A stretch of 36,607 nt of DNA from Flavobacteriales bacterium (GCA_947463065.1 CANHSF010000007.1:1-36607), one strand, 5' to 3'; counted from the first letter of the stretch, positions 1 to 22,029 are shown. Numbers and translations: made by a program. Notes: generated from the sequence alone by a model not told the origin.

Positions 1-1125
1 AAAGGGTGTATCGATGATAATGGAGACCACATTACCCGCCAAAATACCGAGTACAATACCAATGGCCCCTCCGATTTGACCGATCAAAATGGCTTCGATC
101 AAAAACTGACGTCGAATAATCGCAGCAGAGGCACCAATGGCTTTGCGTGTGCCAATTTCGCGCGTGCGTTCGGTCACCGACACCAACATGATATTCATCA
201 AACCAATGGCTGCACCGAGCAAGGTAATGACTCCAATAACAGAAGCACCCAGGGTGATACCCGAAATCAATTCATTGAGATCTTGCGCCATGCGATCGCT
301 TTTGATCAGTTCAAAACTTTCCTCCTCGCCCAAATCGTCTTTGCGAATGATACGCATCCAACCGGCAGCTTCCGACATGGCCTTGTCCAATTGGTCCACC
401 TTGTTGACCCGCACATTGATGCGGTATTCTGTTTCGTCGCTATTAAAATTCTTGCGCACGTTGCTCACAGGAATGAGACACTGATTGTCGCCTGCTATCC
501 CCAGCGTATTGCCTTTGGATTTGAGCACACCAATGATTTCATACTGAAATTGCCCGATATACATTTTTTCCCCAATGGGAGAAGGCCGATCTTTAAACAA
601 TTTCGTGATAATGTCCTGGCCCAAGATCACCACATTGCTGCCATTTTCCAACTCCGATGGCGCCAGATTGCGTCCCGATTCCAAGGTAAAACCAGAAAGT
701 TCCAAGTAACTCGGGTCGCATCCAATGACTTTGACATTGGGGTTGCTTTCGTTGCCATTGGCCTTGAGTTTGGCATTGTAGGAAGCCACGGCCGACATAC
801 TTACATTGGCATCGAAGGCGTATTGATCAATAAAAGCCTTGGCCTCTTCATAGTTGATGACTTCACTCACCCTTTGGCGCATGCCGTGCCGACCGCCTTG
901 TCCAGTTACACCAGCCGAATAAATGGTAAACGTATTGCTCCCCATGCGCGAAAACTCCTGATTGACTTTGTTTTCCAACGCTTTAGTTGCGGTAATCATG
1001 GCCACCAACGCCATAATCCCGATGGCAATAATGGCCACCGTGATGATGGTCCGCAGGGTCTGACTGCCCAAGGCCCGCCATGCAATGCGCAAATTCTCTA
1101 TGTTGGTGTGTATACTGCGGTTCAT
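1..1125 (-). CDS. ABC transporter permease, MacB/FtsX-like (partial, runs off the left edge)
   Basis: The reverse strand is open from ATG at 1125 to the window edge. It starts MNRSIHTNIENLRIAWRALGSQTLRTIITVAIIAIGIMALVAMITATKALENKV and ends ..MLVSVTERTREIGTRKAIGASAAIIRRQFLIEAILIGQIGGAIGIVLG.., the typical FtsX/MacB permease signature. It is absent from the ORF track because no stop lies inside the window. Confidence 0.9.
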   Translation of the reverse strand, partial: MNRSIHTNIENLRIAWRALGSQTLRTIITVAIIAIGIMALVAMITATKALENKVNQEFSRMGSNTFTIYSAGVTGQGGRHGMRQRVSEVINYEEAKAFIDQYAFDANVSMSAVASYNAKLKANGNESNPNVKVIGCDPSYLELSGFTLESGRNLAPSELENGSNVVILGQDIITKLFKDRPSPIGEKMYIGQFQYEIIGVLKSKGNTLGIAGDNQCLIPVSNVRKNFNSDETEYRINVRVNKVDQLDKAMSEAAGWMRIIRKDDLGEEESFELIKSDRMAQDLNELISGITLGASVIGVITLLGAAIGLMNIMLVSVTERTREIGTRKAIGASAAIIRRQFLIEAILIGQIGGAIGIVLGILAGNVVSIIIDTPF

Positions 1126-3664: not shown

Positions 3665-6600
3665 TCATCGCACATGCATCATCGGCACTCGCAATGTGTG
3701 TTGGCCATCGCTGACGATTACCGTATACCATCCTTCACTCAACTGCGCTGTATCGATGCGCACCTCCTCACCCTCGTAACGGCGCTGGATAGTTATAGCT
3801 TGCGCCACTTTGCCCATTACATCCACCACATGGATCTGGAGTGAACGATCTAAACCATGCGCACGAAGCATTGCATGAGTGGTGTTGGGATTGGGATAAA
3901 CGTGTACACCGATGTCGCTTTTACTGGTTTCATCCACCGTCACGAGATTGGTATTCCAGTTGAAGTGATGAATAATCTCTTTGCCAAAATCATTTTCAAA
4001 ATTGATGAAATCCAATCCCGAAATACGGTCCAATTTGCAGTTGCCATTGCCATCGTTGTTGGCGAAGAAACTCAATCCGTCTTCCCCTGAATCGCGCAAG
4101 TGGAACATATAACAACCGCTGTTCAATTGCAGTGTATCGCGATACGTCGTGTTGGGCGCGGGAAAATTACTCCGCTCAAATACAACATTGCCCGCACCAT
4201 CGTACAGCGTATAACTGCTCTCCAAATTGCTGGCGTTGGTTTTCAATTGAATGATCAAGCGGTTGTCATCCAAATCCGGATATTGATACGTCGCTGGGCG
4301 ATAAAAATAACTTTCACCATAATTGTTGCTCGGATTATCATCAGCTCCATCTGCGCTTAAGCCCAGTTGAATGTAAAAGGTAAGCAAGGTTTCGTCGTCG
4401 CCCCACCACATGGTATTGTCCGTGGTGGTCAATTCTACAATCTCGCTTTCCATAAAGTCCAAAGACCCCGTCCAGTGGTAGGTCTGTGGTTCGCCGCCCT
4501 CTACGCCGAAGACAATATTGAGATCTGTCAACGGCTGGGCTCCCTTGTTGCGCAATACAAACCGTGGACGATTGCACATGGGATTCCAGCGGCTATGGAT
4601 GAGCTGAGCACTGGGAGCAAGTATTTGATCAATCTCAGGATCATGTTGATGGGCTATGGGGCCGTAGCCGATCAAGGTGCCAAAGAACACGTAATTGCCG
4701 TACGGATCGGTCGTGATGTCATAATCTACCGTAAACGTATTGCCCGCTCCCACATGCGGTGTCAATTCAAACTCCTTCGTTGTGCTGTTCATGCCCGGGC
4801 ACCACCCTGCGCGATCGTAAATCCACGTGCCGCCTTGCGGATACAACGGGTTATCCGCACATTCCTGTAAAATGTCCCACGTTGCAATCGGCGTATTGTT
4901 GACCTCCACCGTTTGCATGTTGTTGCAAAACTCACCGCAATTGTTGTTGTCAAAACCGAAGCCATGCCCCGTATTGGTGGTCAACAATTTCCATGATGTC
5001 TCTCCTATTTGTTTTTCGATGGTCTGCGTTGTGACTTGCTGATCAAAAGTGGATAGATTGTAATTGCCATCCCACACTCTTTCAACACGCAATACCTCAC
5101 GTGCGGGAGTGCCTTCGATAAATACAAATTTCATGTCCAACAACTCTTGCCAATTGCCGGCTTCCAACTCCACTGAATCGCGCAGCAACGGCGCAAAATC
5201 GGTGACATCGGTAACCCATGTCCAACCGTTATCACCAAGGTCCAAACCGATTCCATACATCGTAATGAATCGATTCAATTCATAGCGATCGATGATTTCG
5301 AAAGGACGTTGATAATACGACCACGTGCTGTTTTGCAATGTGCTTTCCAAGCTTGTTGCCGCACTATCGATGATGGTTCCGTTGGCATCATAGGTATACG
5401 TATAGGCATTGGTCCACACCAAGGTGTTGCTGATCACCGTCGGGGTATAATCACTGATGATGTATTCGGTCAAAACCGAAGGGTTGTGCTCAATGGGCCA
5501 ACTCTGTTCGACCATGATTTGCGACCATGCCGCCGTACCATTGAAAAAACGCATCACAGGGCGCTCTTGATCGATGATTGCATTGCGCCACCATGTCGCT
5601 GCATCATAGTGTAAACGCTGGGGATTGCCTATCACGATGCCATGGTGATTGTTGCCGCTTTCGTCTTGCACATAGGCACTGATTGGTCCATCAAAGGAAT
5701 ACATGCACTGCAAATTGGCCCAAGCCGGATGCGAAGAGTTGATGTCGGTGTTGATCCAAGCAGCGATGGTGGCGGCATCCAACTCTACATTCCAAATGGC
5801 AAATTCATCTACCGCACCACGATAGTGATTGGTCCAACTCTTAGCCGCACCGAGTGCAAATGCGGTGATGCCAGCCATAGCATTGTCCAAATTGGAACCG
5901 CTATGCCAAAGCACGCCATTGAGATAAATTTTCATGGAACCTGTTGTGGTGTTTTTGGTAAATGCCCAGTGGTTCCAAACCCCTTCGTAACTCGATGCCG
6001 CAGCGGCTTTGTCGATGCGATCGTATCCACCATTGTTGCCCGCATCCCAATACACACGTCCATTGCTCCAAGGCAAGTGCACATTCAGTTGGCGTTCATT
6101 GCTCGCTCCTACGCCTTCAAACACGGTTCCATCGGTAGGTTGAACATCGGCATCGCCATTAATCCAAAACGCGATGGTGATTTGATCCGATACATTTTCG
6201 AATGCAGCCGCGGGCACTTCGATGCGGTCGTTTCCATTGAAATGAATATACCGTTCGTCTCCCGCGCTACCGATATGACAATCGTATGCCGCGTTCTCCA
6301 GCGCAAACAAAGGTTCTGCAACCGATTGTGGATTGGCATACGACCATTCGAGCAAAAGATCACTGGCACCATCCCATGTCCACGGATTGATGAGGGTGAA
6401 GTTGAGCCAACCATCGCTCGATACTTCTGTGACACCGTTGTACAAGGTTGTCCAATTGGCATTGTCCCATTGGGTGATGGCGGCTTGATTGACCCATTTG
6501 CCTTTGATGACCAAGGGCAAATAACTTGAAGGAACATCCACCTCCGTTGAAAGCGAAAATTGCACAATATCGCCCGCTTGCAAACCCGCATTAATCAAAT

Positions 6601-7138
6601 CGCTTGCATGGTAAAGGTATTGTTGTCTGCTCATGGCATCGCTGCGCAAAGGTCCAAGGCCCAAGGCGTTCGCATTGGAGGTGATGGCGTACGATTCGTT
6701 TTCGATGACCAATTGTCCTGCTGGCAAGGTCACATTTTGGGAATCGAATACGGGTACCGTTGAATACACAACAGCATCAAAATTCTGACCATCGATTAAA
6801 TAACGCGGATGGGTTGTCGCCACCGAATCCATTACGCCGGTGTGATCATAGAGATAGGTATACGTCAGGTAATCCCATTCACCGCAGGGGAATCCAAGAT
6901 TACCCGCTGTCCCATCCTCGAAGCACTTGAGATTGTAGTACATCAAGATTTTTTGATAGGTGATCCCATTGTCGGAAGCAGGAAATTCAAACCACCGACG
7001 ACCCGGTGAGTCATATGCCGTTTGCGGATTGTTTTGCGCTGCGTGGGTAAAGGTTTGAACAATAGTCGTGTCGGCAGTTTGAGCGACAAGCGCCTGAGCC
7101 AACACCATTGCGGATAGAAAGGTAAGCGTGCGAATCAT
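3665..7138 (-). CDS. Secreted peptide-N-glycosidase F-like protein with internal LamG/concanavalin-like domain and T9SS type-A C-terminal sorting domain
   Basis: Signal peptide MIRTLTFLSAMVLAQALVAQ. PNGase F-like motifs: PCGEWDYLTYTYLYDHTG, NRFITMYGIGLDLGDNGWTWVTDVTDFAPLLRDSVEL, KFVFIEGTPAREVLRV, GHGFGFDNNNCGEFCN, ADNPLYPQGGTWIYDRAGWCPGM. LamG-like segment: ..IHFNGNDRIEVPAAAFENVSDQITIAFWINGD..GVWNHWAFTKN..MKIYLNGVLWHSGSN..DEFAIWNVELDAATIAAWIN. C-terminus: VYPNPNTTHAMLRAHG..VVDVMGKV..GWYTVIVSDG. Confidence 0.88.
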   Translation of the reverse strand: MIRTLTFLSAMVLAQALVAQTADTTIVQTFTHAAQNNPQTAYDSPGRRWFEFPASDNGITYQKILMYYNLKCFEDGTAGNLGFPCGEWDYLTYTYLYDHTGVMDSVATTHPRYLIDGQNFDAVVYSTVPVFDSQNVTLPAGQLVIENESYAITSNANALGLGPLRSDAMSRQQYLYHASDLINAGLQAGDIVQFSLSTEVDVPSSYLPLVIKGKWVNQAAITQWDNANWTTLYNGVTEVSSDGWLNFTLINPWTWDGASDLLLEWSYANPQSVAEPLFALENAAYDCHIGSAGDERYIHFNGNDRIEVPAAAFENVSDQITIAFWINGDADVQPTDGTVFEGVGASNERQLNVHLPWSNGRVYWDAGNNGGYDRIDKAAAASSYEGVWNHWAFTKNTTTGSMKIYLNGVLWHSGSNLDNAMAGITAFALGAAKSWTNHYRGAVDEFAIWNVELDAATIAAWINTDINSSHPAWANLQCMYSFDGPISAYVQDESGNNHHGIVIGNPQRLHYDAATWWRNAIIDQERPVMRFFNGTAAWSQIMVEQSWPIEHNPSVLTEYIISDYTPTVISNTLVWTNAYTYTYDANGTIIDSAATSLESTLQNSTWSYYQRPFEIIDRYELNRFITMYGIGLDLGDNGWTWVTDVTDFAPLLRDSVELEAGNWQELLDMKFVFIEGTPAREVLRVERVWDGNYNLSTFDQQVTTQTIEKQIGETSWKLLTTNTGHGFGFDNNNCGEFCNNMQTVEVNNTPIATWDILQECADNPLYPQGGTWIYDRAGWCPGMNSTTKEFELTPHVGAGNTFTVDYDITTDPYGNYVFFGTLIGYGPIAHQHDPEIDQILAPSAQLIHSRWNPMCNRPRFVLRNKGAQPLTDLNIVFGVEGGEPQTYHWTGSLDFMESEIVELTTTDNTMWWGDDETLLTFYIQLGLSADGADDNPSNNYGESYFYRPATYQYPDLDDNRLIIQLKTNASNLESSYTLYDGAGNVVFERSNFPAPNTTYRDTLQLNSGCYMFHLRDSGEDGLSFFANNDGNGNCKLDRISGLDFINFENDFGKEIIHHFNWNTNLVTVDETSKSDIGVHVYPNPNTTHAMLRAHGLDRSLQIHVVDVMGKVAQAITIQRRYEGEEVRIDTAQLSEGWYTVIVSDGQHTLRVPMMHVR

Positions 7139-8821: not shown

Positions 8822-9132
8822 AGCGACCATCTAGATGCCCAAAGCTATGCGATTTTTGGTCCCATCTAGAAAAAAAGACAAGAGTTGTTCACGATTCAAA
8901 ATGAGCTCTTCTTGCGCGTGCAATGGTCTTCGCAATTGGCTCAGCAACTTGGGTGAATGACCGAATCAGAAAAACATGATGATGGCATAACCATCTGCGC
9001 ATGCGCCATTCTTTGGCCGGTTGGTTCCATGGCCTCCAAATGCCTAAATCTGAACTTCATCTGTCCAAATCCCCCCTTCGAATGCATCAAATAATCGCAC
9101 AAAAAAGCCACGAAAGCCTTAAATTCGCGGCC

Positions 9133-10566
9133 ATGAGTTCAAAACAACGCACATTGAAGGCCCCTGTTCATTTGCAAGGGGTTGGACTGCACACCGGAGC
9201 CATGGTCAACATGACCATCTTACCCGCTCCCGAGAATCATGGTTACGCCTTTCAGCGCATCGATTTGGAGGCGCAAACCATCATCAAAGCGGATCCCGAT
9301 TTGGTGGTGGGAACACAGCGCGGCACCACCTTGGAATGGCAAGGTGCGCGGGTGCATACCACTGAACACATTTTGGCTGCATTGTATGGTAGCAAAGTCG
9401 ACAACGCATTGATCCAAATCGATGGCCCCGAAATCCCCATCATGGATGGCAGTGCTTGGTTGTTTGTCGAGGCCATCCAATCGGTGGGTTTCGAAGAACA
9501 AAATGCCGATCGCTTGTACCTTACCCTCAAAGAGAATCTTACCTATGAGGATGCCGATCGTCAAATCGAAATGTTGGCGGTGCCTACCACTGGTGGGGAA
9601 TTCCGTTTGACCGTAATGGTCGACTACAATTCGCCCGTACTCGGCACCCAGCATGCCCACATGTACCAATTGGATCATTTTGTGGAAGAAATTTCGCGCT
9701 GCAGAACCTTCGTGTTTTTGCGCGAATTGGAAATATTGGCTAAAAATGGCCTCATCAAAGGAGGAAGTTTGGATAACGCCATCGTGATGGTGGACCAACA
9801 ATACTCCGAAGCACAGATCAAAGACATCCTCAAGCTATTGGGCAAAGAGGATCTCGAAGTGCAAGTCGAAGGCATCGGTGTGCTCAATACCGTGAAATTG
9901 CAATTCGAAAACGAACCTGCGCGCCACAAACTTTTGGATATCGTTGGCGACCTTGCCTTGGTCGGTCGATTTGTGCGCGGACATATCCTAGCCGCTCGTC
10001 CCGGCCACTATGGCAATGTGCAATTCGCCAAATTGCTCAAAGGACTGATCAAAGCCGAAAAAGACGCTGCACCAGTTTTTGATCTCTACAAAAAACCATT
10101 GTACGACATCAACGACATCAGCAAAATGTTGCCCCACCGCTATCCGTTTTTGTTGGTCGACAAGATTTTGGAAATGGACGCCACAAGCATTACAGGCATC
10201 AAAAATGTGACCATGAACGAACCGTTTTTCCAAGGCCACTTCCCCGGCAACCCCGTAATGCCTGGCGTATTGCAGGTGGAAGCCATGGCACAAGTCGGTG
10301 GCATCTATGCGCTGTCGCAAGTTCCCGATCCTGAACTGTACTCCACGTATTTCATGAAAATAGATGGCGTCAAGTTCAAACAAAAAGTGCTCCCTGGTGA
10401 CACCTTGGTATTCCGCCTGACCCTGGAGAGCCCGATCCGACGCGGCCTTGTAAACATGCGCGGCGTGGCCTATGTCAACGGCAAAGAAGTTTGCGAAGCC
10501 CTCATGTTGGCGCAAGTTGTAAAAGACAAAGTAGCCGCAACCACAACCGAAACCGAAAAAGTATGA
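9133..10566 (+). CDS. lpxC/fabZ: Bifunctional UDP-3-O-acyl-N-acetylglucosamine deacetylase / 3-hydroxyacyl-ACP dehydratase (LpxC-FabZ fusion)
   Basis: N-terminal half: LKAPVHLQGVGLHTGAMVNMTILPAPENHGYAFQRID, VHTTEHILAALYG, EIPIMDGSAW, HKLLDIVGDLALVGRFVRGHI. C-terminal half: MLPHRYPFLLVDKILEMD, EPFFQGHFPGNPVMPGVLQVEAMAQ. MSSKQRTLKAPV start chosen over the track start at 9001. Confidence 0.96.
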   Translation: MSSKQRTLKAPVHLQGVGLHTGAMVNMTILPAPENHGYAFQRIDLEAQTIIKADPDLVVGTQRGTTLEWQGARVHTTEHILAALYGSKVDNALIQIDGPEIPIMDGSAWLFVEAIQSVGFEEQNADRLYLTLKENLTYEDADRQIEMLAVPTTGGEFRLTVMVDYNSPVLGTQHAHMYQLDHFVEEISRCRTFVFLRELEILAKNGLIKGGSLDNAIVMVDQQYSEAQIKDILKLLGKEDLEVQVEGIGVLNTVKLQFENEPARHKLLDIVGDLALVGRFVRGHILAARPGHYGNVQFAKLLKGLIKAEKDAAPVFDLYKKPLYDINDISKMLPHRYPFLLVDKILEMDATSITGIKNVTMNEPFFQGHFPGNPVMPGVLQVEAMAQVGGIYALSQVPDPELYSTYFMKIDGVKFKQKVLPGDTLVFRLTLESPIRRGLVNMRGVAYVNGKEVCEALMLAQVVKDKVAATTTETEKV

Positions 10567-11345
10567 GCTCCACATTTAGCATCATCGACCCCAAAGCCAA
10601 AATTGGACAAGGCGTAGAAATAGGTCCATTTACCACCATCGCCGGTGATGTTGAAATTGGCGATGGCACTTGGATTGGCCCCAATGTCACCATCATGGAC
10701 GGAGCGCGCATCGGCCGCAATTGCCGCATTTTTCCAGGCGCTGTTATTTCGGCTATTCCTCAAGATCTCAAATTCGAAGGAGAACAGACCTCAGTAGAAA
10801 TCGGAGACAACACAACCATCCGCGAATGCTGCACGATCAACCGAGGCACAAAAGATCGGTTCAAGACCACCATCGGCAGCAACTGCTTGCTCATGGCCTA
10901 TGTGCACATTGCGCACGATGCCGCAGTGGGCAACAACTGCATCATTGCCAACAGTGCCAACATCGCAGGACATGTCACCATCGAAGATTGGGTCATCATT
11001 GAGGGCGTAGTGGCCATCCAACAGTTTGTGCGACTTGGGCAACATTCGTTCATTGCTGGAGGAAGCTTGGTGCGCAAGAACGTTCCACCATACGTCAAAG
11101 CCGCTCGCGAGCCTCTGAGCTATGCCGGCGTGAATACCGTTGGACTTCGCCGAAGAGGTTTTGAAAATGAGACCATCGCCCATATTGAAGATGTGTACCG
11201 CATGATCTACGTCCACAACAGCAACATGAGCAGAGCCATGCACGCCGCCGAAATGGAATTGCCCGCTTCCAATGAAAAAGAAACCATTTTGGACTTTATC
11301 CGCCAGAGCGACAAAGGCATCATCCGCGGGCCTCAAGGACTGTAA
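10563..11345 (+). CDS. lpxA: Acyl-ACP--UDP-N-acetylglucosamine O-acyltransferase
   Basis: MSSTFSIIDPKAKIGQGVEIGPFTTI.. left-handed hexapeptide repeats; NTTIRECCTINRGT, YVHIAHDAAVGNNCIIANSANIAGHV. Overlaps the upstream stop as ATGA (10563-10566). Confidence 0.96.
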   Translation: MSSTFSIIDPKAKIGQGVEIGPFTTIAGDVEIGDGTWIGPNVTIMDGARIGRNCRIFPGAVISAIPQDLKFEGEQTSVEIGDNTTIRECCTINRGTKDRFKTTIGSNCLLMAYVHIAHDAAVGNNCIIANSANIAGHVTIEDWVIIEGVVAIQQFVRLGQHSFIAGGSLVRKNVPPYVKAAREPLSYAGVNTVGLRRRGFENETIAHIEDVYRMIYVHNSNMSRAMHAAEMELPASNEKETILDFIRQSDKGIIRGPQGL

Positions 11346-11347
11346 TA

Positions 11348-11980
11348 TTGAAGATTGAACTTCAAAATATTGGTAAAAAATACCACCGCGAATGGATTTT
11401 TCAGCATCTCTCTCAAACCATTGATGCACATTCCGCGGTAGCACTCCTCGGCGGCAACGGCTCGGGTAAATCGACCCTGCTTAAAATCCTTTCGGGATAC
11501 CTCACGCCGACAGAAGGACTCATCGCTTGGCACATCAACAGCAAAACCATCCCGCTGTCGCAACTGCACAGCCACATCGCCCTCTGCGCGCCTTATCAGA
11601 TGCCATTTACAGAATTCACCCTTCGCGAAAATGTTGAATTCTACCGCTCATTCAAGCCCCTCCAAGCCAACCTCACCACCAACGACTTTGCCCATCGCAT
11701 AGGCTTGGCCCACGCCCTCGACAAACCCTTGCACCAATTCAGCTCGGGGATGCAACAGCGCCTCAAGCTGGGGTTGGCCATCCTGAGCGACGTCCCCCTC
11801 TTGCTTCTCGACGAGCCAACTTCGCACTTGGACAAAGCAGCACAACAGTGGTATCATGAGCTACTTCTCGAACATCCGGCGCAACGCACGGTTGTAATCG
11901 CCTCCAATGAACCCGACAAAGATGTGCCTTTGCCAGCACTGACCATTGAGGTGGCGGCCTTCAAAAAAAACAAAACCTGA
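11348..11980 (+). CDS. ABC transporter ATP-binding protein
   Basis: Walker A LLGGNGSGKSTLLKILSGYL, signature FSSGMQQRLKLGLAIL, Walker B LLLLDEPTSHLD. TTG start at 11348, 2 nt after the lpxA stop. Confidence 0.9.
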   Translation: MKIELQNIGKKYHREWIFQHLSQTIDAHSAVALLGGNGSGKSTLLKILSGYLTPTEGLIAWHINSKTIPLSQLHSHIALCAPYQMPFTEFTLRENVEFYRSFKPLQANLTTNDFAHRIGLAHALDKPLHQFSSGMQQRLKLGLAILSDVPLLLLDEPTSHLDKAAQQWYHELLLEHPAQRTVVIASNEPDKDVPLPALTIEVAAFKKNKT

Positions 11981-12067
11981 AAACCGACTCGACTGGGGCT
12001 AGATCGGATGTGAAATACTCCATTTATCATGTAAATTAGCCCACTTAATTAACGCTTTCATTCGCTT

Positions 12068-13093
12068 ATGAGCACGATCAAATTTGCCGTTATTGGCGCA
12101 GGTCACATCGGAAAACGCCACGCCGAAATGGTGGTGCGCAATCCCGAGTCAAAATTGGTCGCTATATGTGATACCCGCAGCAAAGCCGAATGCGGTGTGG
12201 ACTACGATGTGCCCTTTTTCAATGACCCCAAAACCATGCTCGAAACCGTGGATTGTGACGTGGTGTGTGTGTGCACCCCCAACGGTTCGCATGCGAAAAT
12301 GGGTTTGCTCGCCCTCGAACACCACAAGCATTTGGTGGTGGAAAAACCAATGGCGTTGACCAAAGCCGATTGCGAAAGCCTAATCTTTGCGGCTTTGAAT
12401 GTGCACCGCCAAGTCTTTTGCGTCATGCAAAACCGGTACAGTCCGCCCAGCGAATGGGTCAAATCGCTGCTCACCGATAAAAAATTGGGTGAGATCTATA
12501 TGGTCAACATCGATTGCTTTTGGAACCGAGATCACCGCTACTACAAGCCCAACTATTGGAAAGGGACATTGGAAGAAGATGGCGGTACTCTGTTTACCCA
12601 ATTCTCGCATTTCATCGACATCATGTATTGGTTGTTTGGCGACATCACCAATATCCAAGCACGTTTCCGCGATTTCAACCACCAGAACAATACGGAATTC
12701 GAGGACAGCGGCATTGTCAGTTTTGACTTTGTCAATGGCGGTATTGGCAGCATCAACTTCTCCACCTCGGTGGCCAATGTCAATCTCGAAAGCAGCTTGA
12801 CCATTGTCGCCGAAAAAGGAACCGTAAAAATTGGAGGCCAATACATGAACGAGGTGCATTACTGCAACATCAATGACTACGAGATGCCAACACTCCCCGA
12901 AGGCAACCCCGCCAACGACTACGGCGCATACAAAGGCTCAGCGGCCAACCATGTGTACATCATCGAAAATGTGGTAGACACCCTGAAAGGCCGCACCAAA
13001 ATCACTACCAACGCATTGGAGGGCCTCAAAGTGGTGGATATCATCGAACGCATCTACCAAAGTGCGCCACGTATCACCAAATCGTTGAAATAA
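12068..13093 (+). CDS. Gfo/Idh/MocA-family NAD(P)-dependent oxidoreductase
   Basis: Rossmann FAVIGAGHIGKRHAEMV; VVCVCTPNGSHAKMGLLALEHHKHLVVEKPMALT; DGGTLFTQFSHFIDIMYWLFG. Confidence 0.92.
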   Translation: MSTIKFAVIGAGHIGKRHAEMVVRNPESKLVAICDTRSKAECGVDYDVPFFNDPKTMLETVDCDVVCVCTPNGSHAKMGLLALEHHKHLVVEKPMALTKADCESLIFAALNVHRQVFCVMQNRYSPPSEWVKSLLTDKKLGEIYMVNIDCFWNRDHRYYKPNYWKGTLEEDGGTLFTQFSHFIDIMYWLFGDITNIQARFRDFNHQNNTEFEDSGIVSFDFVNGGIGSINFSTSVANVNLESSLTIVAEKGTVKIGGQYMNEVHYCNINDYEMPTLPEGNPANDYGAYKGSAANHVYIIENVVDTLKGRTKITTNALEGLKVVDIIERIYQSAPRITKSLK

Positions 13094-13105
13094 ACAAGTC
13101 GGCAT

Positions 13106-14410
13106 TTGCAAAAAATCATTGGACTCCTGCAAAAAGAATTCGTCAAGAATGTACTGACATTGATGACGGGAACTGTGTTGGGCCAAGGCATTGCGCTCCT
13201 GCTTTCGCCCCTGATCACCCGCCTGTTTTCGCTCGAAGACTTTTCGGCATTCGAACAATATTCCTTTTTGCTGAGTGTGCTCTCTGTAATCATTTGCGGC
13301 AAGTACGAATACAGCATCATGCAGCCCAAAGACCAAGAAGACGCCCGTCACCTCTTGGCATTGTCGATTCGCATTGCCTTCTTTGCAAGCATCGGTGTGG
13401 GCATAGTCCTTTTGTTCACCTCCGGCATGATTGCCGACGCCTATCACAGTCCGTCACTGCGCTATCTCTTGTGGACACTGCCGGTGGCTTTGTTTCTTGC
13501 CGGCACCTTCAACGCAATCAACTATTGGTTCAGCCGCAAAAAAAACTACCGCGTGGCCGCCACCTCCAAATTGTTGTACAGCGCCGCTGGAGAGCCCTTC
13601 AAATTGGCAGCCGGTTGGATCAAACCCACACCGGCCGGACTGATTCTGTCCACTGTGATCGGACATTTGACCGCCACTTGGCAATCGTGGTTTCAACTCC
13701 GCCGCGACGAACCCCGAACCATCCGACATATCGATCGCAAACGTATGATGGACCTGGCCCGAACGTACATTCGGTATCCTCGCTTTGCCATTTGGGGAAG
13801 CATTCTCAACACCATGGCCCAATGGGCTCACGTGGCTGTATTTGGTTTCTACTACCACGAAGCCGCTTTGATTCCAATTGCCTATATCGCGCTTAGCCGC
13901 CGTATCTTCTTCAATCCGTTGGGCATCATCGCCAACTCGTATGGGCAAGTATTTTATCAGCGCATTCAGCAAATTGATGACGGTTACGCCTTGAAAAAAT
14001 TCTACATCACCAATCTGTTGCGGTTTTGTGCCTTTGGTGCGTGCATGGTGGCGGTGGTCTACCTTCTGCCCAACAACTCCCTGGGTTTTGTGTTTGGCGA
14101 AAAATGGACCGATGCCTTGGAATACCTCAAGATCCTCTGTTTCTGGTATGCCCTCAATTTTGCAATCACTTCCTTGTCCTTTATCTTCAACCGCCTGCAA
14201 TTGCAGCATTACACATTGGTTGCCGACGCCGTGCATTTTGTAGCCGTTATTGCTGCATTTGCCATCGCCTACCACACCGGAATGGATGCCAAAGGAGCAG
14301 TAACTGCAATGGTCGTCACCAAAGTGGTATACTTGTCGCTTAATTTGGTCGCGATCATTTATTTTCTTGATCGATACGCTCAACAACAAAAAACAAGAAA
14401 CACCGCATGA
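13106..14410 (+). CDS. Oligosaccharide flippase family protein (Wzx-like)
   Basis: Multiple TM helices; GTVLGQGIALLLSPLITRLFSLEDFSAFEQYSFLLSVLSVIICGKYEYSIMQP is typical of the family. TTG start. Confidence 0.88.
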   Translation: MQKIIGLLQKEFVKNVLTLMTGTVLGQGIALLLSPLITRLFSLEDFSAFEQYSFLLSVLSVIICGKYEYSIMQPKDQEDARHLLALSIRIAFFASIGVGIVLLFTSGMIADAYHSPSLRYLLWTLPVALFLAGTFNAINYWFSRKKNYRVAATSKLLYSAAGEPFKLAAGWIKPTPAGLILSTVIGHLTATWQSWFQLRRDEPRTIRHIDRKRMMDLARTYIRYPRFAIWGSILNTMAQWAHVAVFGFYYHEAALIPIAYIALSRRIFFNPLGIIANSYGQVFYQRIQQIDDGYALKKFYITNLLRFCAFGACMVAVVYLLPNNSLGFVFGEKWTDALEYLKILCFWYALNFAITSLSFIFNRLQLQHYTLVADAVHFVAVIAAFAIAYHTGMDAKGAVTAMVVTKVVYLSLNLVAIIYFLDRYAQQQKTRNTA

Positions 14411-15537
14411 AGAAAATAGCTGTTCTTGTTCTCAACAACTTTGTCAATGACAATCGGGTTCAGAAGATTGCCACCTCGCTCGGGCAAGCCGGCCACCGCG
14501 TGACTGTCGTGGCTTTGCTCAAAGGCCAAGTGCCGGAGCGCGAACAGCACGGTTCGTTCAATACCCACCGCATAAGGCTTTCCACATCGCGATTGCCCAA
14601 CAAAAACAAATTTTTCGGCGCCCTGAAATTTTTGGAATTCATTTTTCATGTCGTCCGCCATTACCGCTCGCAAGACATCATCCATTGCAATGATTTTGAA
14701 GCCATGTTTGTAGGCGTGGTGGCAAAATTGACCCGGCCATCGCTGATCCTGGTGTACGATTGCCACGAATACGAACGCGAGCGCACAGGTATGAATTTCA
14801 TCAAAAAATGGTCGACTAGAATCTTTGAACCCGTGGTCATTCGATTTGCACGGCAAGTATTTGTGGTGAGCGAAGGCATCAAAAAAGAATACCACCGCAT
14901 GTATCCCCACGCCAAAGTGGACTTGCTGATGAATCTCCCGCATATTCGATCGTTCAGCAATCGGCAGGTCTTGCGCCAGTACCTTCACTTGCGCGACGAC
15001 CAACACATTTTTTTGTACCAGGGCGCTTTGACCATGGGAAGAGGCATCGAAACATTGATTGAAACCTTTGCTTCCTTTACCGACGATCGCAAAGTGGTCG
15101 TATTCATGGGGTATGGTCCATTGACACAGCGCATTATCGACGCTGCACAAAAACACAACACCATTCACTACCATCCCGCGGTGGCCTACGAAGCGATCAT
15201 GGACTACACCTCTGGCGCAGACTTCGGACTCAACACCCCACAAAATGTAAGCAAAAGCTATTATTACTGCTTGCCCAACAAACTCTTCGAATACATCCAC
15301 GCCGAAATCCCCATTATCACCAACAATCTGTACGATTGCCGATTGCTGGTGGAAAAACACCGCATCGGAACGGTGATCGAAGAATTCACTCCCAAGGGCA
15401 TAGTGGACGCGATAGAAGCAGCCGAGCAACTGAATCGCGATGAAATCAAACAGCGCATGGCACAAATTAAAGCAACCTATACGTGGCAAAACGAAGAGCA
15501 AAAATTGATTGCTGCTTATGCCTCTCTCCATGCTTAA
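14407..15537 (+). CDS. Glycosyltransferase, GT4-like
   Basis: MKKIAVLVLNNFVNDNRVQKIATSLGQAGHRVTVVALLKG; LVYDCHEYERE; FLYQGALTMGRGIETLIETFA; LPNKLFEYIHAEIPIITNN. ATG overlaps the flippase stop (ATGA). Confidence 0.92.
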   Translation: MKKIAVLVLNNFVNDNRVQKIATSLGQAGHRVTVVALLKGQVPEREQHGSFNTHRIRLSTSRLPNKNKFFGALKFLEFIFHVVRHYRSQDIIHCNDFEAMFVGVVAKLTRPSLILVYDCHEYERERTGMNFIKKWSTRIFEPVVIRFARQVFVVSEGIKKEYHRMYPHAKVDLLMNLPHIRSFSNRQVLRQYLHLRDDQHIFLYQGALTMGRGIETLIETFASFTDDRKVVVFMGYGPLTQRIIDAAQKHNTIHYHPAVAYEAIMDYTSGADFGLNTPQNVSKSYYYCLPNKLFEYIHAEIPIITNNLYDCRLLVEKHRIGTVIEEFTPKGIVDAIEAAEQLNRDEIKQRMAQIKATYTWQNEEQKLIAAYASLHA

Positions 15538-16441
15538 AATCCAAGAAATACCGACAACGGAACGCCATCTTTTTCGCGAGCACTTCGACGATGCCTACTA
15601 TCGCGATCCGCACATCGATCAGGTGTACCAACACCGCTTGCGTTATTTCGGCATTTTTCTAGAGGGCCAATTGGCAGGTGGATTTGCGGTGTACGAAGGC
15701 GGCAAAGGGCCACTCAAAACATGGATTACACCGCCATTCTATCCGCACATCGGTCTATTTGTACTGCGCTCCGAAATCACGGTGGACAAACTCCTCTTGC
15801 AGCTTACCGCATTTGCTCGAAGTCAATACGTCTGTTATTTGAAATGGGATTTGCCCATTGCTTTTCACAGCTCCAACTTGCCGGCGCATTGGCACGAACG
15901 CTGGACTTATCGCTTGCACTTGCGGCAATCCGAATCATCGCTGATTAAAAACATTCACCCTACCATCAAGAGCAGCCATCAGAAGGCGATCAAACAAGGA
16001 TGCACCTTTGTAGCCGATACCCAAAAGCATGAGGTGATGGCCCTTATTCGCAGCAACCTTGATCAAAAAAATGTGCGCTACAAAGGCCAATTGCTGGACC
16101 AATTGCAGACCTACTACAGCGAGCACCCCAAGGCGCATTATTTCTCCACCTTTCTAGGCAACCAGCGCATAGCATGCAACATCATCTATGTGGACAATGG
16201 CATAGCGTATCATTTGTTCAGTGCCTTTGACCGTAGCTTGGCGCTCAATTATGCCAATGCAGCGCATTTGCTCGGTACATTGTTGTATCTGAAAGAAAAC
16301 TTCAGCGATATCCACACATTTGACTTTGAGGGAAGCACCGTGCCGAGTATTGATTTTTATTTCAAACGATTTGGAGGCATTCAATGCAAATACCCCAGCA
16401 TGTATTACTCACGCCTGCCCCTATTCTTTAAGGCGCCTTGA
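15530..16441 (+). CDS. FemAB/GNAT-like acyltransferase family protein
   Basis: SLIKNIHPTIKSSHQKAIKQG, GNQRIACNIIYVDNGIAYHLFSAFDRS, FDFEGSTVPSIDFYFKRFGG resemble FemAB/BioF2-like GNAT folds. ATG at 15530 overlaps the GT stop. Confidence 0.72.
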   Translation: MLKIQEIPTTERHLFREHFDDAYYRDPHIDQVYQHRLRYFGIFLEGQLAGGFAVYEGGKGPLKTWITPPFYPHIGLFVLRSEITVDKLLLQLTAFARSQYVCYLKWDLPIAFHSSNLPAHWHERWTYRLHLRQSESSLIKNIHPTIKSSHQKAIKQGCTFVADTQKHEVMALIRSNLDQKNVRYKGQLLDQLQTYYSEHPKAHYFSTFLGNQRIACNIIYVDNGIAYHLFSAFDRSLALNYANAAHLLGTLLYLKENFSDIHTFDFEGSTVPSIDFYFKRFGGIQCKYPSMYYSRLPLFFKAP

Positions 16442-16478: not shown

Positions 16479-16507
16479 GAAAAAAGGCACCTTTCGGTGC
16501 CTTTTTT
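16479..16507. terminator. Bidirectional rho-independent terminator
   Basis: AAAAAAGGCACCTTTCGGTGCCTTTTTTT: GGCACC/GGTGCC stem, A-tract and T-tract flanks, between convergent genes. Confidence 0.9.
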
Positions 16508-16524
16508 TATGCTGAATAAATCGT

Positions 16525-16750
16525 TTACTCGATCACCAATCGGCTGGAGCGTCCAGCATGCTGAACCGTGTAAACACCGGCTGCTGCGTCCGACAAATCA
16601 AAGGCCATCATCGGCGACGTAACTCGGAAACGGTGCACCAATTGACCTTGGGCATTCCATACCAACACATCCGAATTCAACTCCAGTGCATTCATGTTGA
16701 ATGAGCCGCGGGTTGGATTGGGATACATCGTCCATTGTGGCACCATGGTT
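16525..16750 (-). other. T9SS C-terminal sorting domain region of the giant repeat protein
   Basis: MYPNPTRGSF..VLVWNAQGQLVHRF..LSDAAAGVYTVQHAGRSSRLVIE. Confidence 0.85.
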
Positions 16751-19700
16751 TCGTTGATATTATCGGGACAATCTTGACACGCTTCGAAACACACAATTGG
16801 AACAACGATATCTGTTGTGCCCGTTTGGATAAATCGATTGTATCCGCCAAAACCATCGCCTTGGCCACATTCAAATGGTACAGTCTCCCAAATGGCTCCA
16901 TTGAGGAACTTGTAGGTCACCAATGTATTGGTGGGAACCGTAATGGTGTAGCTGTAAAGCGCTCCTCCATTCAATGCCATCTCATCCGACACGGAGTTGA
17001 ATCCGTTGAACGAACCGGCAACAAAAACACCAGCAGGCTCCACCACCTCTTCGGCCATATTGACTTGGAAGGTAATGTTCACCTCTGGTGTTACAACGCA
17101 ATCTACACAGCCACCGAAACAAACAATAGGGACAACCGCATTGACCTCGCCAGCAGTATAGGAGCGATTGATGTTGCCACCACCGTCATCGGTACCGCAC
17201 TCCGCAGGCACCGTCTCTGCGCCTGTCCAATCCATTCCATTGATGAACTTGTATCCTGCTGTTTCACCAGCCAACATCACCACCACTGCTTCATATTGAT
17301 CGGGCGCGTATTCGCTCATCTGGGTCGCTGATGGATCCCATCCGTTGAATGCACCAGCAATGTAAACACCATCGGGACTCACCGACTCGTTGGCCATATT
17401 GACACGGAATGTTATCAGCACAGGAGTGCCGCTTCCGCAAGCCGAACAAGAAGAAAAACAAACCGGACCATACACGGTATCGGCAGCATTCACTACAAGT
17501 ATACGGTTGTAACCGCCAAAACCATCGCCCTGCCCGCAATCGGAAGGCACCGTTTCGGATCCACTCCACGCATTGTCGTTGATGAACTTGAACAATACAC
17601 TGGAGTTGACTGGCACTGCGGCAGTGTATTCGTAAATGCCGTCGCTATTGGCATCGGTCATTTCTGACGTAGCCGGGTTCCAACCTTGGAAGTTTCCTGC
17701 AATGTGCACCCCGTTTGGTGAAACGGTTTGCGTAGACATATCCACTTTGAAGGTGACATCAACGGTAGTTGGCTCCACCACATCATCGCAATCTACGCAG
17801 CCTGAGAAACACACTGGGCCCACGACGACATTCTCTGTGCCGATGACCAATTCGCGGTTGAATCCGCCGAAACCATTGTCCGCGCCGCATTCAGCAGGAA
17901 CAACTTCTTGTTGGTCCCACGTGCTGCCATTGATGAACTTAAACTGAATGGTTTGATTGCCTTCGATTTGGTAGCTCAACTCATACACACCACCGCCCAA
18001 CTCGTTCATGACCGTGCCATTGGGGTTCCATCCTTGGAAGCTACCTGCAATATGTACTCCATTGGGCGAAACCACTTCATTGCTCATGTTGACCTGGAAG
18101 ACAACAGTGACCAAAGTAGGTTCGACCACGTCTTCACAGATCGTGCAAGCACCAAAACATACTGGGCCATAGCTGGCTGCTGCATTGGCCACTTCAACTT
18201 CACGATTGCCATCGGGAGCCACTGCACAATTGCCGGTGACTGTTTCGTCATTACCCCATGAATTGCCATTGATAAATTTGAACGCCGCCGTGCTATTGAT
18301 CGGAACCATGACTTCCACCATATACACGCCATCGGCATTGACATCTGTAAGCGGTGTTGTGGACGGATTCCAATCGTTGAACGTTCCAGCCACATGCACG
18401 CCATTTGCACTCACTGTTTCGTTGGTCATATCAACAGACAAGGTCAAAGCCACCATTTCGGGCTCGATCACTGGACAAGCTGCACACGACCCAAAACATA
18501 CAGGGCCCACAACTTGCGTAAAATTGCCAACGGTATACTCGCGCATTTGACCGTTTACACCGGCATCCACCGCACATTCGAATGGAATCGCCTCATCGGC
18601 TGCACCATTGGCAAATCGATATTCGATCACGGATCCAATTTCAAACAATCCGATGTACTCATATAAACCGCCACCCAAACTCGTCATGGCCACGGGGCTT
18701 GTCACATCGGGACTAGTAAAGAACACACCATCACCACTCACTACTTCATTGGTCATATCCACACGGAAAGCAATTTGAACACTATCCGCAGCAGGAAGAC
18801 AATCCAAACACTCACCGTAACATACGGGGCCATATTGTGCGGCTACATCTTGTACGTTGAAACTGCGGTTGTACCCTCCAAAACCATTGCCTATTCCACA
18901 TTCCATAGGAACAGCCTCTTCGCCGCTCCATGCATTTCCATTGATAAACTTGAACAAAATTTCACTATTGATCGGAGCAGCCAATGTCACAGTATATATG
19001 CCGTCGTTGTCCTCATCGGTCATTTCGGTCGATGCTGGATTCCAACCCTGAACACTTCCTGCTAGATGCACACCATTGACATCGACAATTTCATTTTGCA
19101 TATTCACCATAAACGTCACATCCACTGTGGTGGGCTCTACGATATCCTCACAATCTACACATGCCCCAAAGCAAACGGGACCAAAAATGCTATCGTTGGC
19201 CAATACCTCGAAACTGCGATTCAAATCATTGGTCACACCACATTCTGCAGGAACACTTTCGTTTTGCCCCCAAGCATTGCCGTTGACGAATTTGAATTGC
19301 AATTCTGAATTGGCTTCTACTTCGATGGTGACTTCATAAACTCCGTCGCTATTGGCATCGGTCATTGCTGTGGTAGCGGGATTCCAGCCTTGGAAATTTC
19401 CTGCTACGTGAACACCATCGGCACTTACCGTTTCGTTTTGCATATTCACCAACAAGGTCACATTGACCAAAGTTGGATCAACGATAATGGGTTCGCAATC
19501 CGCACATGCACCAAAGCATACTGGACCAAAAACCACATCGGTATCGGCGATATCGATGGAGCGATTGAGATCGTTGTCCGTATCGCATTCTACCGGTACA
19601 ATTTCATTCTCCGCCCACGTATTGCCATTGATGAATTTGAATTGCACCTGCGAAGCAACTTCCGCCTCAAAGGTGTATTCATAAATGCCATCGTTGTTGG

Positions 19701-21948
19701 CGTCAGTCATAGCAGTAGCAGCAGGGTCCCATCCTTGGAAATTGCCTGCTACATGCACCCCATTCGGGCTCACGGTTTCATTTTGCATGTTTACTAAAAG
19801 CGTAACACTGACAAAAGTGGGATCCACGATGATCGGCTCACAATCGAGACATTCCCCAAAACACACTGGACCATATACCGTATCATTGTCCAATACGTTG
19901 ATGAAACGATTCAAATCGTTGGTGATACCGCATTCGGCTGGCACACTTTCGTTTTCGCCCCATGCATTGCCATTGATGAACTTAAACTGAGCTTGGGCAT
20001 TGGCTTCCACTTGCACTTGAACTTCATAGATGCCATCGTTGTTGGCATCGGTCATGGCCGTAGATGCGGGATCCCAACCTTGGAAACTGCCCGCTACGTG
20101 CACTCCGTTGGTGCTAACCGTTTCATTTTGCATGTTGACCTGTAGGGTCAGGTTGACAAAAACTGGCTCAACCGCGGGCAAACAAATGTCGCAAGTCGAA
20201 AAACACACCGGGCCAAACGCAATATCATTGCTGCCGGTTTCGAGCAAACGGTTGTTGCCGCCCACGCCATCAGGCAATCCGCAAGCCGATGGTACTGTCT
20301 CTGCACCATCAAACGTATCGCCATTGATGAATTTGAAAGAAAGATTGGCCCATTCGTCCAATTCCAAAGTCACTTCGTACACCCCGTCGTTGTTGGCGTC
20401 GAGCAATTCGTCTGAAGCAGGATTCCAACCGTTGAAGTTACCAGCAATATGCACGCCTTGCGGAGAAACGGTTTGTTGCGACATGTTCACTTTAAATGTG
20501 ATCAGATTTGTTGGTTCATCGATGATGATACCACAGTCTTCGCATTGCGCAAAACACACCTCAGGTACGATGGTATCGTTTTGGGAAGTGTAAATCACAC
20601 GGTTAAAATTGCCCTGGCCGTCGCTGAGTGAACATTCGGCAGGCAATACCTCTTCGTTGCCCCAGCTATTGCCATTGATGAATTTGTAGAACACTTGCGC
20701 ATTGGCATCCACTTCTACAGTGGCCGTGTACACTCCATCGGTATTATCATCGGTCATCGGTGTTGCACTTGCACTCCAATCATTGAACGGACCAGCGATA
20801 TGAACCCCATTCGCACCTACGGTTTGTTGGGACATATCCACATGCAAAGTGACCATTACGGTCTCGGGCAACACACATGCCACACAGCTCGAGAAACACA
20901 CAGTGGCTGCAGTGGTATCATTCAAACCGGACAATTCCAATCGACGATTGATACCGCCGAAACCATCGTCCACACCACATTCGGCAGGAACCGATTCTGC
21001 GACATCAAAGGTGATTCCATTCAAAAATTTGTAATCGATCGTTGAACCAGCTGTCACTTCCATGATGTGTTCGTACACCCCGTTTCCGGCAGGTGACATG
21101 ACCGGACCAGGCAAGGTCCAGTTCTGGAACGTACCGACAATGTGCACGCCGTTGGGGTCGACGGTTTGTTGGGACATATCCACGCGAATCGTCACCTGCA
21201 CCATCTCCGGATCAGGGAGTGTGGTGCACGCTGCACAAGAACCAAAACAAACACTGCTTCCGGGTACATCGGCGGTTTGCACCGACAAGGTGCGATTGTA
21301 GCCACCAAAACCATCGCCCACACCGCATTCAGCAGGCACTACTTCGGATTGAGGCCAATCGTTACCATTGATAAACTTGTAGTTGATGGATGTGTTTTCG
21401 GTCAATTCAAAAGTATAACTGTATAGCCCATTACCGATGGCCGTCATGGCGGTAGCCGATGGATTCCAACCTTGGAAAGAACCCGCGACATGAACCCCAT
21501 TAGGGCTTACGGTTTGTTCAGACATATCTACCATCAATGTCACCGATACCGTTCCTGGCTGATCGTTGCACGCAAAACACGAGGCGAAGCATACTGGACC
21601 AACGGTGATGGGGTTATTGCCACCGATATTTACAGTGCGATTGTAACCACCGAATCCATCGCCTGCACCGCAGGCAGCAGGAACCGATTCGGCTTGAGGC
21701 CAGTCGTTGCCATTGATAAATTTGTATTGATAGGTACCCGCTGGGATAGACAAGGTGACACTATATATTCCATTGCCTTGATTGGTCAATGCGGTAGAAG
21801 CTGGGTTCCAATTCTGAAATGAACCCGCTACATGCACGCCATTGGGACTAACCGTCTGTCCGGTCATATCCACTTGAAACGTGACATTCACTTGCGCCCA
21901 AGTCAAAACCGACCAGAGCATACAACACAGTACAAGTACTTTTTTCAT
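16525..21948 (-). CDS. Giant secreted multidomain protein: 15 tandem CBM20/CBM48-like modules plus T9SS type-A sorting domain
   Basis: Signal peptide MKKVLVLCCMLWSVLTWAQ. I count 15 modules of the form V.VTF.V(D/N)M..(Q/E)TVS.NGVH(V/I)AG.FQGWNP..T.MTD.N.DG(I/V)YE.T..V.....(F/Y)KFINGN.W...E.VPAECG...GFGGYNR..........GPVCFG.C..C. C-terminus: WTMYPNPTRGSFNMNALELNSDVLVWNAQGQLVHRFRV..FDLSDAAAGVYTVQ. Confidence 0.92.
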   Translation of the reverse strand: MKKVLVLCCMLWSVLTWAQVNVTFQVDMTGQTVSPNGVHVAGSFQNWNPASTALTNQGNGIYSVTLSIPAGTYQYKFINGNDWPQAESVPAACGAGDGFGGYNRTVNIGGNNPITVGPVCFASCFACNDQPGTVSVTLMVDMSEQTVSPNGVHVAGSFQGWNPSATAMTAIGNGLYSYTFELTENTSINYKFINGNDWPQSEVVPAECGVGDGFGGYNRTLSVQTADVPGSSVCFGSCAACTTLPDPEMVQVTIRVDMSQQTVDPNGVHIVGTFQNWTLPGPVMSPAGNGVYEHIMEVTAGSTIDYKFLNGITFDVAESVPAECGVDDGFGGINRRLELSGLNDTTAATVCFSSCVACVLPETVMVTLHVDMSQQTVGANGVHIAGPFNDWSASATPMTDDNTDGVYTATVEVDANAQVFYKFINGNSWGNEEVLPAECSLSDGQGNFNRVIYTSQNDTIVPEVCFAQCEDCGIIIDEPTNLITFKVNMSQQTVSPQGVHIAGNFNGWNPASDELLDANNDGVYEVTLELDEWANLSFKFINGDTFDGAETVPSACGLPDGVGGNNRLLETGSNDIAFGPVCFSTCDICLPAVEPVFVNLTLQVNMQNETVSTNGVHVAGSFQGWDPASTAMTDANNDGIYEVQVQVEANAQAQFKFINGNAWGENESVPAECGITNDLNRFINVLDNDTVYGPVCFGECLDCEPIIVDPTFVSVTLLVNMQNETVSPNGVHVAGNFQGWDPAATAMTDANNDGIYEYTFEAEVASQVQFKFINGNTWAENEIVPVECDTDNDLNRSIDIADTDVVFGPVCFGACADCEPIIVDPTLVNVTLLVNMQNETVSADGVHVAGNFQGWNPATTAMTDANSDGVYEVTIEVEANSELQFKFVNGNAWGQNESVPAECGVTNDLNRSFEVLANDSIFGPVCFGACVDCEDIVEPTTVDVTFMVNMQNEIVDVNGVHLAGSVQGWNPASTEMTDEDNDGIYTVTLAAPINSEILFKFINGNAWSGEEAVPMECGIGNGFGGYNRSFNVQDVAAQYGPVCYGECLDCLPAADSVQIAFRVDMTNEVVSGDGVFFTSPDVTSPVAMTSLGGGLYEYIGLFEIGSVIEYRFANGAADEAIPFECAVDAGVNGQMREYTVGNFTQVVGPVCFGSCAACPVIEPEMVALTLSVDMTNETVSANGVHVAGTFNDWNPSTTPLTDVNADGVYMVEVMVPINSTAAFKFINGNSWGNDETVTGNCAVAPDGNREVEVANAAASYGPVCFGACTICEDVVEPTLVTVVFQVNMSNEVVSPNGVHIAGSFQGWNPNGTVMNELGGGVYELSYQIEGNQTIQFKFINGSTWDQQEVVPAECGADNGFGGFNRELVIGTENVVVGPVCFSGCVDCDDVVEPTTVDVTFKVDMSTQTVSPNGVHIAGNFQGWNPATSEMTDANSDGIYEYTAAVPVNSSVLFKFINDNAWSGSETVPSDCGQGDGFGGYNRILVVNAADTVYGPVCFSSCSACGSGTPVLITFRVNMANESVSPDGVYIAGAFNGWDPSATQMSEYAPDQYEAVVVMLAGETAGYKFINGMDWTGAETVPAECGTDDGGGNINRSYTAGEVNAVVPIVCFGGCVDCVVTPEVNITFQVNMAEEVVEPAGVFVAGSFNGFNSVSDEMALNGGALYSYTITVPTNTLVTYKFLNGAIWETVPFECGQGDGFGGYNRFIQTGTTDIVVPIVCFEACQDCPDNINETMVPQWTMYPNPTRGSFNMNALELNSDVLVWNAQGQLVHRFRVTSPMMAFDLSDAAAGVYTVQHAGRSSRLVIE
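16750..21891 (-). repeat. Array of 15 in-frame protein-coding tandem modules (~330-350 bp each)
   Basis: Recurring reverse-strand coding of NGVHVAG.FQGWNP, FKFINGN.W, VPAECG and GPVCFG.C..C through the whole ORF. Confidence 0.92.
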
Positions 21949-21982: not shown

Positions 21983-21990
21983 CAAATATA
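21983..21990 (-). promoter_or_regulatory. Putative -7 element TATATTTG upstream of the giant repeat protein gene
   Basis: Reverse complement of CAAATATA; exact match to TAnnTTTG, 35 nt upstream of the start codon. The -33 element is not convincing. Confidence 0.45.
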
Positions 21991-22029
21991 TGACTAAGTG
22001 TCTATTATACACCAACATACCCCTTTCCC

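Follow-up and report, generated by a model that had tools for sequence, protein, structure and literature searches.

The window (the whole 36,607-nucleotide stretch of Flavobacteriales DNA analysed here) carries a gene for what is probably an exported, enzyme-free, multivalent alpha-glucan tether, a reading supported by the protein's architecture, its predicted fold, the conservation of its putative sugar site and a genomic link to alpha-glucan use. The gene occupies 16525..21948, exactly as the earlier note had it, and lies on the minus strand (21948-16525), which the note had left unstated. Its 1807-aa product had been described as 15 tandem modules of about 110-115 aa between a signal peptide and a T9SS tail, with no catalytic domain, and this description holds. 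The 15 modules (106-117 aa each) fill residues 20-1728, the sorting domain is recognised by Por_Secre_tail (1.7e-8) and TIGR04183 (6.9e-12), and profile searches over the whole length of the protein returned no catalytic domain match. By eye, the leader MKKVLVLCCMLWSVLTWAQ looks like an ordinary signal peptide, not a lipoprotein leader. T9SS-dependent export is predicted from the sorting domain; Por_Secre_tail has 122 matches across the array-bearing genome. The mature protein, of ~190 kDa, is strongly acidic (pI about 4.05). No cohesin or dockerin domain was found in it by Pfam search, and neither SusE nor SusF Pfam families matched at E<=0.1; a weak T9SS_plug match, at half its cut-off, was taken as shared fold only. 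The features of the gene are as follows.

16525..21948, minus strand: ORF, 1807 aa; signal peptide, 15 CBM48/AMPK1-type modules and T9SS tail, no catalytic domain (profile searches, translation)
21983..22015, minus strand: possible Bacteroidota promoter, TTG, 22 nt, TATATTTG, in the 81-bp upstream gap (read from sequence)
21892..21948, minus strand: signal peptide MKKVLVLCCMLWSVLTWAQ, residues 1-19 (read by eye)
21550..21891, minus strand: module 1, site W K W F N
21202..21549, minus strand: module 2, site W K W F N
20860..21201, minus strand: module 3, site W K F F N
20509..20859, minus strand: module 4, site W K W Q N
20158..20508, minus strand: module 5, site W K F V N
19813..20157, minus strand: module 6, site W K W - N
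19468..19812, minus strand: module 7, site W K W - N
19126..19467, minus strand: module 8, site W K W - N
18781..19125, minus strand: module 9, site W K W F N; without orthologue in the sister species' array
18454..18780, minus strand: module 10, degenerate; without orthologue in the sister species' array
18112..18453, minus strand: module 11, site W K W - N; without orthologue in the sister species' array
17764..18111, minus strand: module 12, site W K W F N
17422..17763, minus strand: module 13, site W K W F N; modelled alone
17083..17421, minus strand: module 14, site W K W G N
16765..17082, minus strand: module 15, site F K W F N; clusters with the last module of other genera's arrays
16546..16728, minus strand: C-terminal T9SS sorting domain of type A, residues 1741-1801 (above the cut-offs of Por_Secre_tail and TIGR04183)
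16480..16507, minus strand: terminator-like hairpin, 12 pairs then a T run, just 3' of the stop, separating the array from the polysaccharide genes convergent to it

Bacteroidota promoters follow the consensus TTTG / TAnnTTTG, the yardstick for the upstream candidate; a scan with the sigma-70 consensus, which is uninformative for Bacteroidota, gave fewer matches than in shuffles. Elsewhere in the window, a surface-polysaccharide locus at 9001-16441 (plus strand: LpxC/FabA fusion, LpxA-type, oxidoreductase, flippase, glycosyltransferase and GNAT-like genes) is convergent to the array, an order kept in the sister species. A T9SS protein of 1157 aa, encoded at 3665-7138 (minus strand), combines a Laminin_G_3 domain with a peptide-N-glycosidase F C-terminal domain.

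The 15 modules share 27-74% pairwise identity, with 15 positions invariant over all of them (all four cysteines included) and very short linkers, about 1-5 residues separating profile matches. Their assignment to CBM20/CBM48/AMPK1 folds had been made by motif; curated HMM cut-offs, AlphaFold2 modelling with Foldseek, and the glucose-contact residues of AMPK now agree with it. Over the array protein, CBM_48 reached 5e-52 (174.6 bits, cut-off 22.4) and AMPK1_CBM 1e-51 (173.4 bits, cut-off 26.8), and Pfam X25_BaPul_like and CBM_20 likewise exceeded their cut-offs. Module 13 alone, modelled by AlphaFold2 with the 15 modules as alignment input, was predicted to adopt a CBM20-like fold (pLDDT 94.6, pTM 0.87); a non-CBM fold was not found. 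Foldseek against the PDB gave this model 42 matches at E<=0.001 with starch-binding CBM20s on top, those of cyclodextrin glucanotransferases (E 5e-5 to 1e-3), and the SNF1/AMPK beta subunit lower in the list (E 4e-3). Against PDB sequences, the module profile matched starch-binding SusF best (3e-5), followed by the AMPK beta glycogen-binding domain. Together, profiles and models support the module as a CBM48/AMPK1-type starch/glycogen-binding-like domain. Only its first half had been thought CBM-like, a division that the module 13 model does not bear out, since the second half forms a Cys-stapled extension of the same beta-sandwich. In a two-module AlphaFold2 model (pLDDT 96.5, pTM 0.63), the modules are well folded singly and their mutual orientation is not fixed, like beads on a string.

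In AMPK, W100 and W133 stack on the glucose of cyclodextrin, and K126 and N150 hydrogen-bond to it (PMC9788615). W100, K126, W133 and N150 align with module columns 28, 59, 66 and 86, and this four-residue site is kept in 14 of the 15 window modules, three of which have F for one W. The exception is module 10, where the site W, W and N are gone and arginine replaces lysine, with the four cysteines retained. The ring-piercing L146 of AMPK is replaced or missing in many modules. Across the 464 full-length modules from fetched loci, W28 is present in 89%, K/R59 in 93%, an aromatic at 66 in 86% and N86 in 90%. Each module would have a single, shallow putative alpha-1,4-glucan site made of two stacking aromatics, a lysine and an asparagine.

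Could the modules instead be E-set-like spacers of a structural stalk or adhesin, or binders of something other than carbohydrate, with the sugar site a relic? The loss of the site in module 10, the differing module counts of close relatives (15 vs 10) and the presence of modules together with LTD, fn3, Kelch or FG-GAP domains in other proteins would all suit such a protein. We nevertheless regard it as quite unlikely: when the 110 columns are ordered by conservation over the 464 modules, three of the site come 11th, 12th and 15th and the fourth comes 38th, and the site persists in 14 of the 15 copies, whose identity has otherwise fallen to about 40-50%.

The four cysteines of each module (C1-C4; C76, C102, C106 and C109 in the numbering of module 13) have no counterpart in ordinary CBM20/48 domains, and all four are present in 431 of the 464 modules. 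Where they are lost, they tend to go in pairs. C2 and C4 are jointly missing from the L131/L134/L121 group of loci, L123 and L113, and C1 and C3 from three modules of L138. Such joint losses in different lineages suggest that C1 bonds to C3 and C2 to C4.

In a sister species, known from a pond metagenome bin (E1_MAG_00075), an orthologous array of 10 modules sits in the same place between orthologous genes, which confirms that the array is more than a chance occurrence. Most modules pair one-to-one: sister modules 1-5 correspond to window modules 1-5 and sister 7-10 to window 12-15, whereas sister module 6 is the single counterpart of window modules 6-8, one duplicated type (69-74% identical), and window modules 9-11 are unpartnered. 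Between orthologous modules, dN is 0.175 and dS is saturated, so that dN alone, and not dN/dS, is usable for this comparison. Modules 14 and 15 cluster, with moderate support, with the last two modules of other genera's arrays. The array therefore evolves by gain and loss of inner modules, the remainder being held by selection.

The array-bearing genome (3.06 Mb in 283 contigs, 87% complete) encodes further module proteins on contigs C66, C4, C82 and C12. The module is present in 28 of the 40 genomes of the relatives search (own genome counted). A contig scan with four modules as the query showed cultured carriers, namely Schleiferia thermophila, Thermaurantimonas aggregans and Hymenobacter amundsenii. 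The long array without an enzyme had been put forward as exceptional, but it is the standard architecture of this family: in 47 of the 99 fetched module-bearing proteins, modules make up 70% or more of the protein and no catalytic domain was detected. No glycosidase was found in the remainders of these 47, most of which carry T9SS tails. The remaining 52 proteins yielded three GH13 domains and one GH16 domain. Fifteen is the largest module count in the 99-protein set, followed by 14 and 12.

Several members of the family differ in arrangement. The 14-module array at L067 3663-9254 has seven nearly identical first modules, a very recent tandem expansion, and some arrays (e.g., L067, L124, L130, L107) have an extra N-terminal domain. 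Among the remainders of the pure arrays (alignment A3), Pfam recognised Reeler in three members and a plastocyanin-like copper domain in one. Three proteins of one relative (L149 8918-12013, 12314-16225 and 16176-18392) have C-termini with a single dockerin-like motif and no Por_Secre_tail, a replacement also seen in L107, L108, L129, L109, L115 and L151; an example of the motif is DLNNDGIVNAADLLQFLAGFGTMC. In Flavobacteriales it may serve as a further C-terminal signal for sorting or attachment. An SprB-repeat protein with a T9SS tail, of the gliding-adhesin type, is encoded directly downstream of a 4-module array (L199 7847-10213). In cultured Hymenobacter amundsenii, two family modules are N-terminal to a GH13 amylase with a T9SS tail (L113 7566-10169), which makes this strain a convenient place to obtain a single module linked to an enzyme.

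The earlier note's multivalent surface glycan binding remains the best-supported reading on the sequence and model evidence, and the ligand it left open can be narrowed, by genomic association, to alpha-glucan. One locus of the array's own genome (contig C111) encodes SusC, SusD and a T9SS-exported CBM48-GH13 amylase, and it holds the only SusD-like_3 match detected in this genome; the array itself, on contig C7, is outside it. Of the 40 genomes, 26 of the 28 module-bearing ones have a full-length orthologue of the amylase (E<1e-100), as against none of the 12 module-free ones (Fisher p = 1.6e-8, which overstates the evidence because the genomes are related and not independent samples). The two exceptions are G003 and G018, with modules and no amylase. 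Outside the window's own family, f4, f5, f8 and f9 have both modules and amylase, and f2, f3, f6, f7 and f10-f12 have neither. GH16, the control, was found in 22 of 28 module-bearing and 7 of 12 module-free genomes (p=0.25).

A survey of homologue neighbourhoods, as the earlier note proposed, revealed physical links in relatives. In one (L133), a 9-module array lies 230 bp from susC, with susD behind susC and the amylase on the array's other side, and in another (L206) a single 19-kb stretch brings together the PUL amylase, an array, PGI, a SusA-like gene and two further GH13 genes. A GH13 gene occurs <=1.5 kb from the array in 14 of 45 relatives' array loci (13 of them head-to-head with a 4-module array), loci that were picked by module matches, although some of their GH13 neighbours were already known. 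Two of these genes, checked by Pfam, are of cyclomaltodextrinase/neopullulanase (SusA-like) type. By contrast, no adjoining GH13 or Sus gene was found beside the window array or related arrays (the sister's, and those of other genera at L144 and L146-L148), so the link of the window array to the amylase is phyletic and not physical.

These associations also bear on whether the ligand might be some other polysaccharide, or another glucan such as laminarin or a mixed-linkage beta-glucan. GH16 occurs commonly in the family, and a relative (L149) has three modules fused to GH16. That fusion prompted us to consider a beta-glucan, a candidate weakened by the divergence of the fused modules, which are without the second tryptophan (those fused to GH13 retain the site signature), and by the lack of a phyletic link, module presence tracking the amylase and not GH16. 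The families that share the fold and site are alpha-glucan binders, and a ligand of another kind is very unlikely.

A further alternative accepts the ligand and changes the purpose: the array would bind alpha-glucan of its own cell or of neighbours and cross-link cells into flocs or biofilm instead of feeding them. The cell has the means to make alpha-glucan, as GlgE, a maltokinase-like (APH) protein and GlgB are encoded by adjoining genes (L166 4888-10483, contig C3), a trio for GlgE-type alpha-glucan synthesis in a Flavobacteriales genome. Moreover, polysaccharide-export type genes are convergent to the array here and in the sister species, and the cultured array-bearer Thermaurantimonas aggregans (L085) is called an aggregating bacterium in a title cited in PMC7214798. 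However, the GlgE route usually leads to intracellular glycogen, the phyletic and physical links point to glucan-degrading genes, and the polysaccharide-gene synteny is confined to the sister species, for which reason a functional tie between the array and these genes was dropped. An aggregation role is accordingly judged unlikely.

An alpha-glucan tether for feeding has partial counterparts in known systems. In Bacteroides thetaiotaomicron, SusE and SusF have two and three X25/CBM58-type starch-binding modules, respectively (PMC9112005). Like them, the array consists of enzyme-free tandem beta-sandwiches (starch-binding by homology), probably at the surface, in a Bacteroidota cell with SusCD and an outer amylase, and SusF is the best PDB match of its module profile. 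Unlike these lipoproteins, it has 15 modules instead of 2-3, four cysteines per module, no SusE/SusF Pfam match and a T9SS export route, and it lies outside the sus locus in its own genome (inside it in the relative L133). The same genome also encodes a candidate SusE/F-like lipoprotein of 477 aa (L143 9098-10531, contig C12), which combines a lipobox-like leader (LFAAC) with four AMPK1-type CBMs that have no cysteine staple. The CBM48/AMPK beta module shares with the array an over-cut-off profile and the four main glucose-contact residues; it is usually a single copy in GH13 enzymes or kinase subunits, and it has neither the C-terminal CF..C..C staple nor the C of the PAECG loop, both of which are found in the array modules. 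Repeated starch-binding modules of Lactobacillus amylases are attached to a catalytic GH13 and belong to another CBM family. They resemble the array in being several in tandem, going by a title cited in PMC9112005. Ruminococcus bromii Sas20, Sca5 and Sca3 are enzyme-free, multi-X25 surface proteins for starch adherence, and Sas/Sca proteins show that tandem X25 modules bind starch without catalysis (PMC9112005). In contrast to the array, the R. bromii amylosome is a cohesin/dockerin assembly of a Gram-positive organism with no T9SS, and its X25 modules act in pairs, are fewer and have no Cys staple described. Membership of an amylosome scaffoldin was rejected for the window protein, which is without cohesin or dockerin, although a dockerin-like motif closes the module proteins of some relatives. 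In Sca5, single X25 lobes fail to bind alone (PMC9112005), and by analogy a module pair, not a single module, may be the binding unit of the array.

Under the tether reading, the protein would cross the inner membrane via its signal peptide and the outer membrane via the T9SS, and it would be retained at or near the cell surface. T9SS cargo can be released as well as surface-held. Each module would be a CBM48/AMPK-type beta-sandwich stapled by two disulfides, and 14 weak sites on a long acidic chain could give high-avidity capture of branched polymers, presumably starch, glycogen or phytoglycogen. The captured glucan would then be cut by the CBM48-GH13 amylase, itself exported separately, and the SusCD pair encoded beside this amylase would import the oligosaccharides.

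The domains and the role are of a known kind; what appears undescribed is the Cys-stapled module type, the valency, the export by T9SS and how widely the family extends, and our search of open-licence literature found no description of this module family. The module or a weaker relative occurs in 149 of the 297 Bacteroidota genomes sampled, and many enzyme-free arrays are built from it, yet Pfam splits it over several families. If alpha-glucan is bound, the natural series of 3 to 15 modules with orthologous positions would make the effect of valency on glycan capture measurable, and the Cys-stapled CBM type would be useful as a modular affinity polymer. It would also suggest a way for T9SS bacteria to hold starch and glycogen that does not rely on SusE/F-type lipoproteins. 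We tentatively raise the possibility that Schleiferiaceae/Cryomorphaceae-type Bacteroidota, and others beyond them, have a second, undescribed starch-utilisation architecture, in which a distinct disulfide-stapled CBM, constituting a new CBM subfamily, is strung into long T9SS-exported polymers. These would fill the role of lipid-anchored SusE/F, their length tuned by module gain and loss, and form a surface net that traps algal or cyanobacterial storage glucans.
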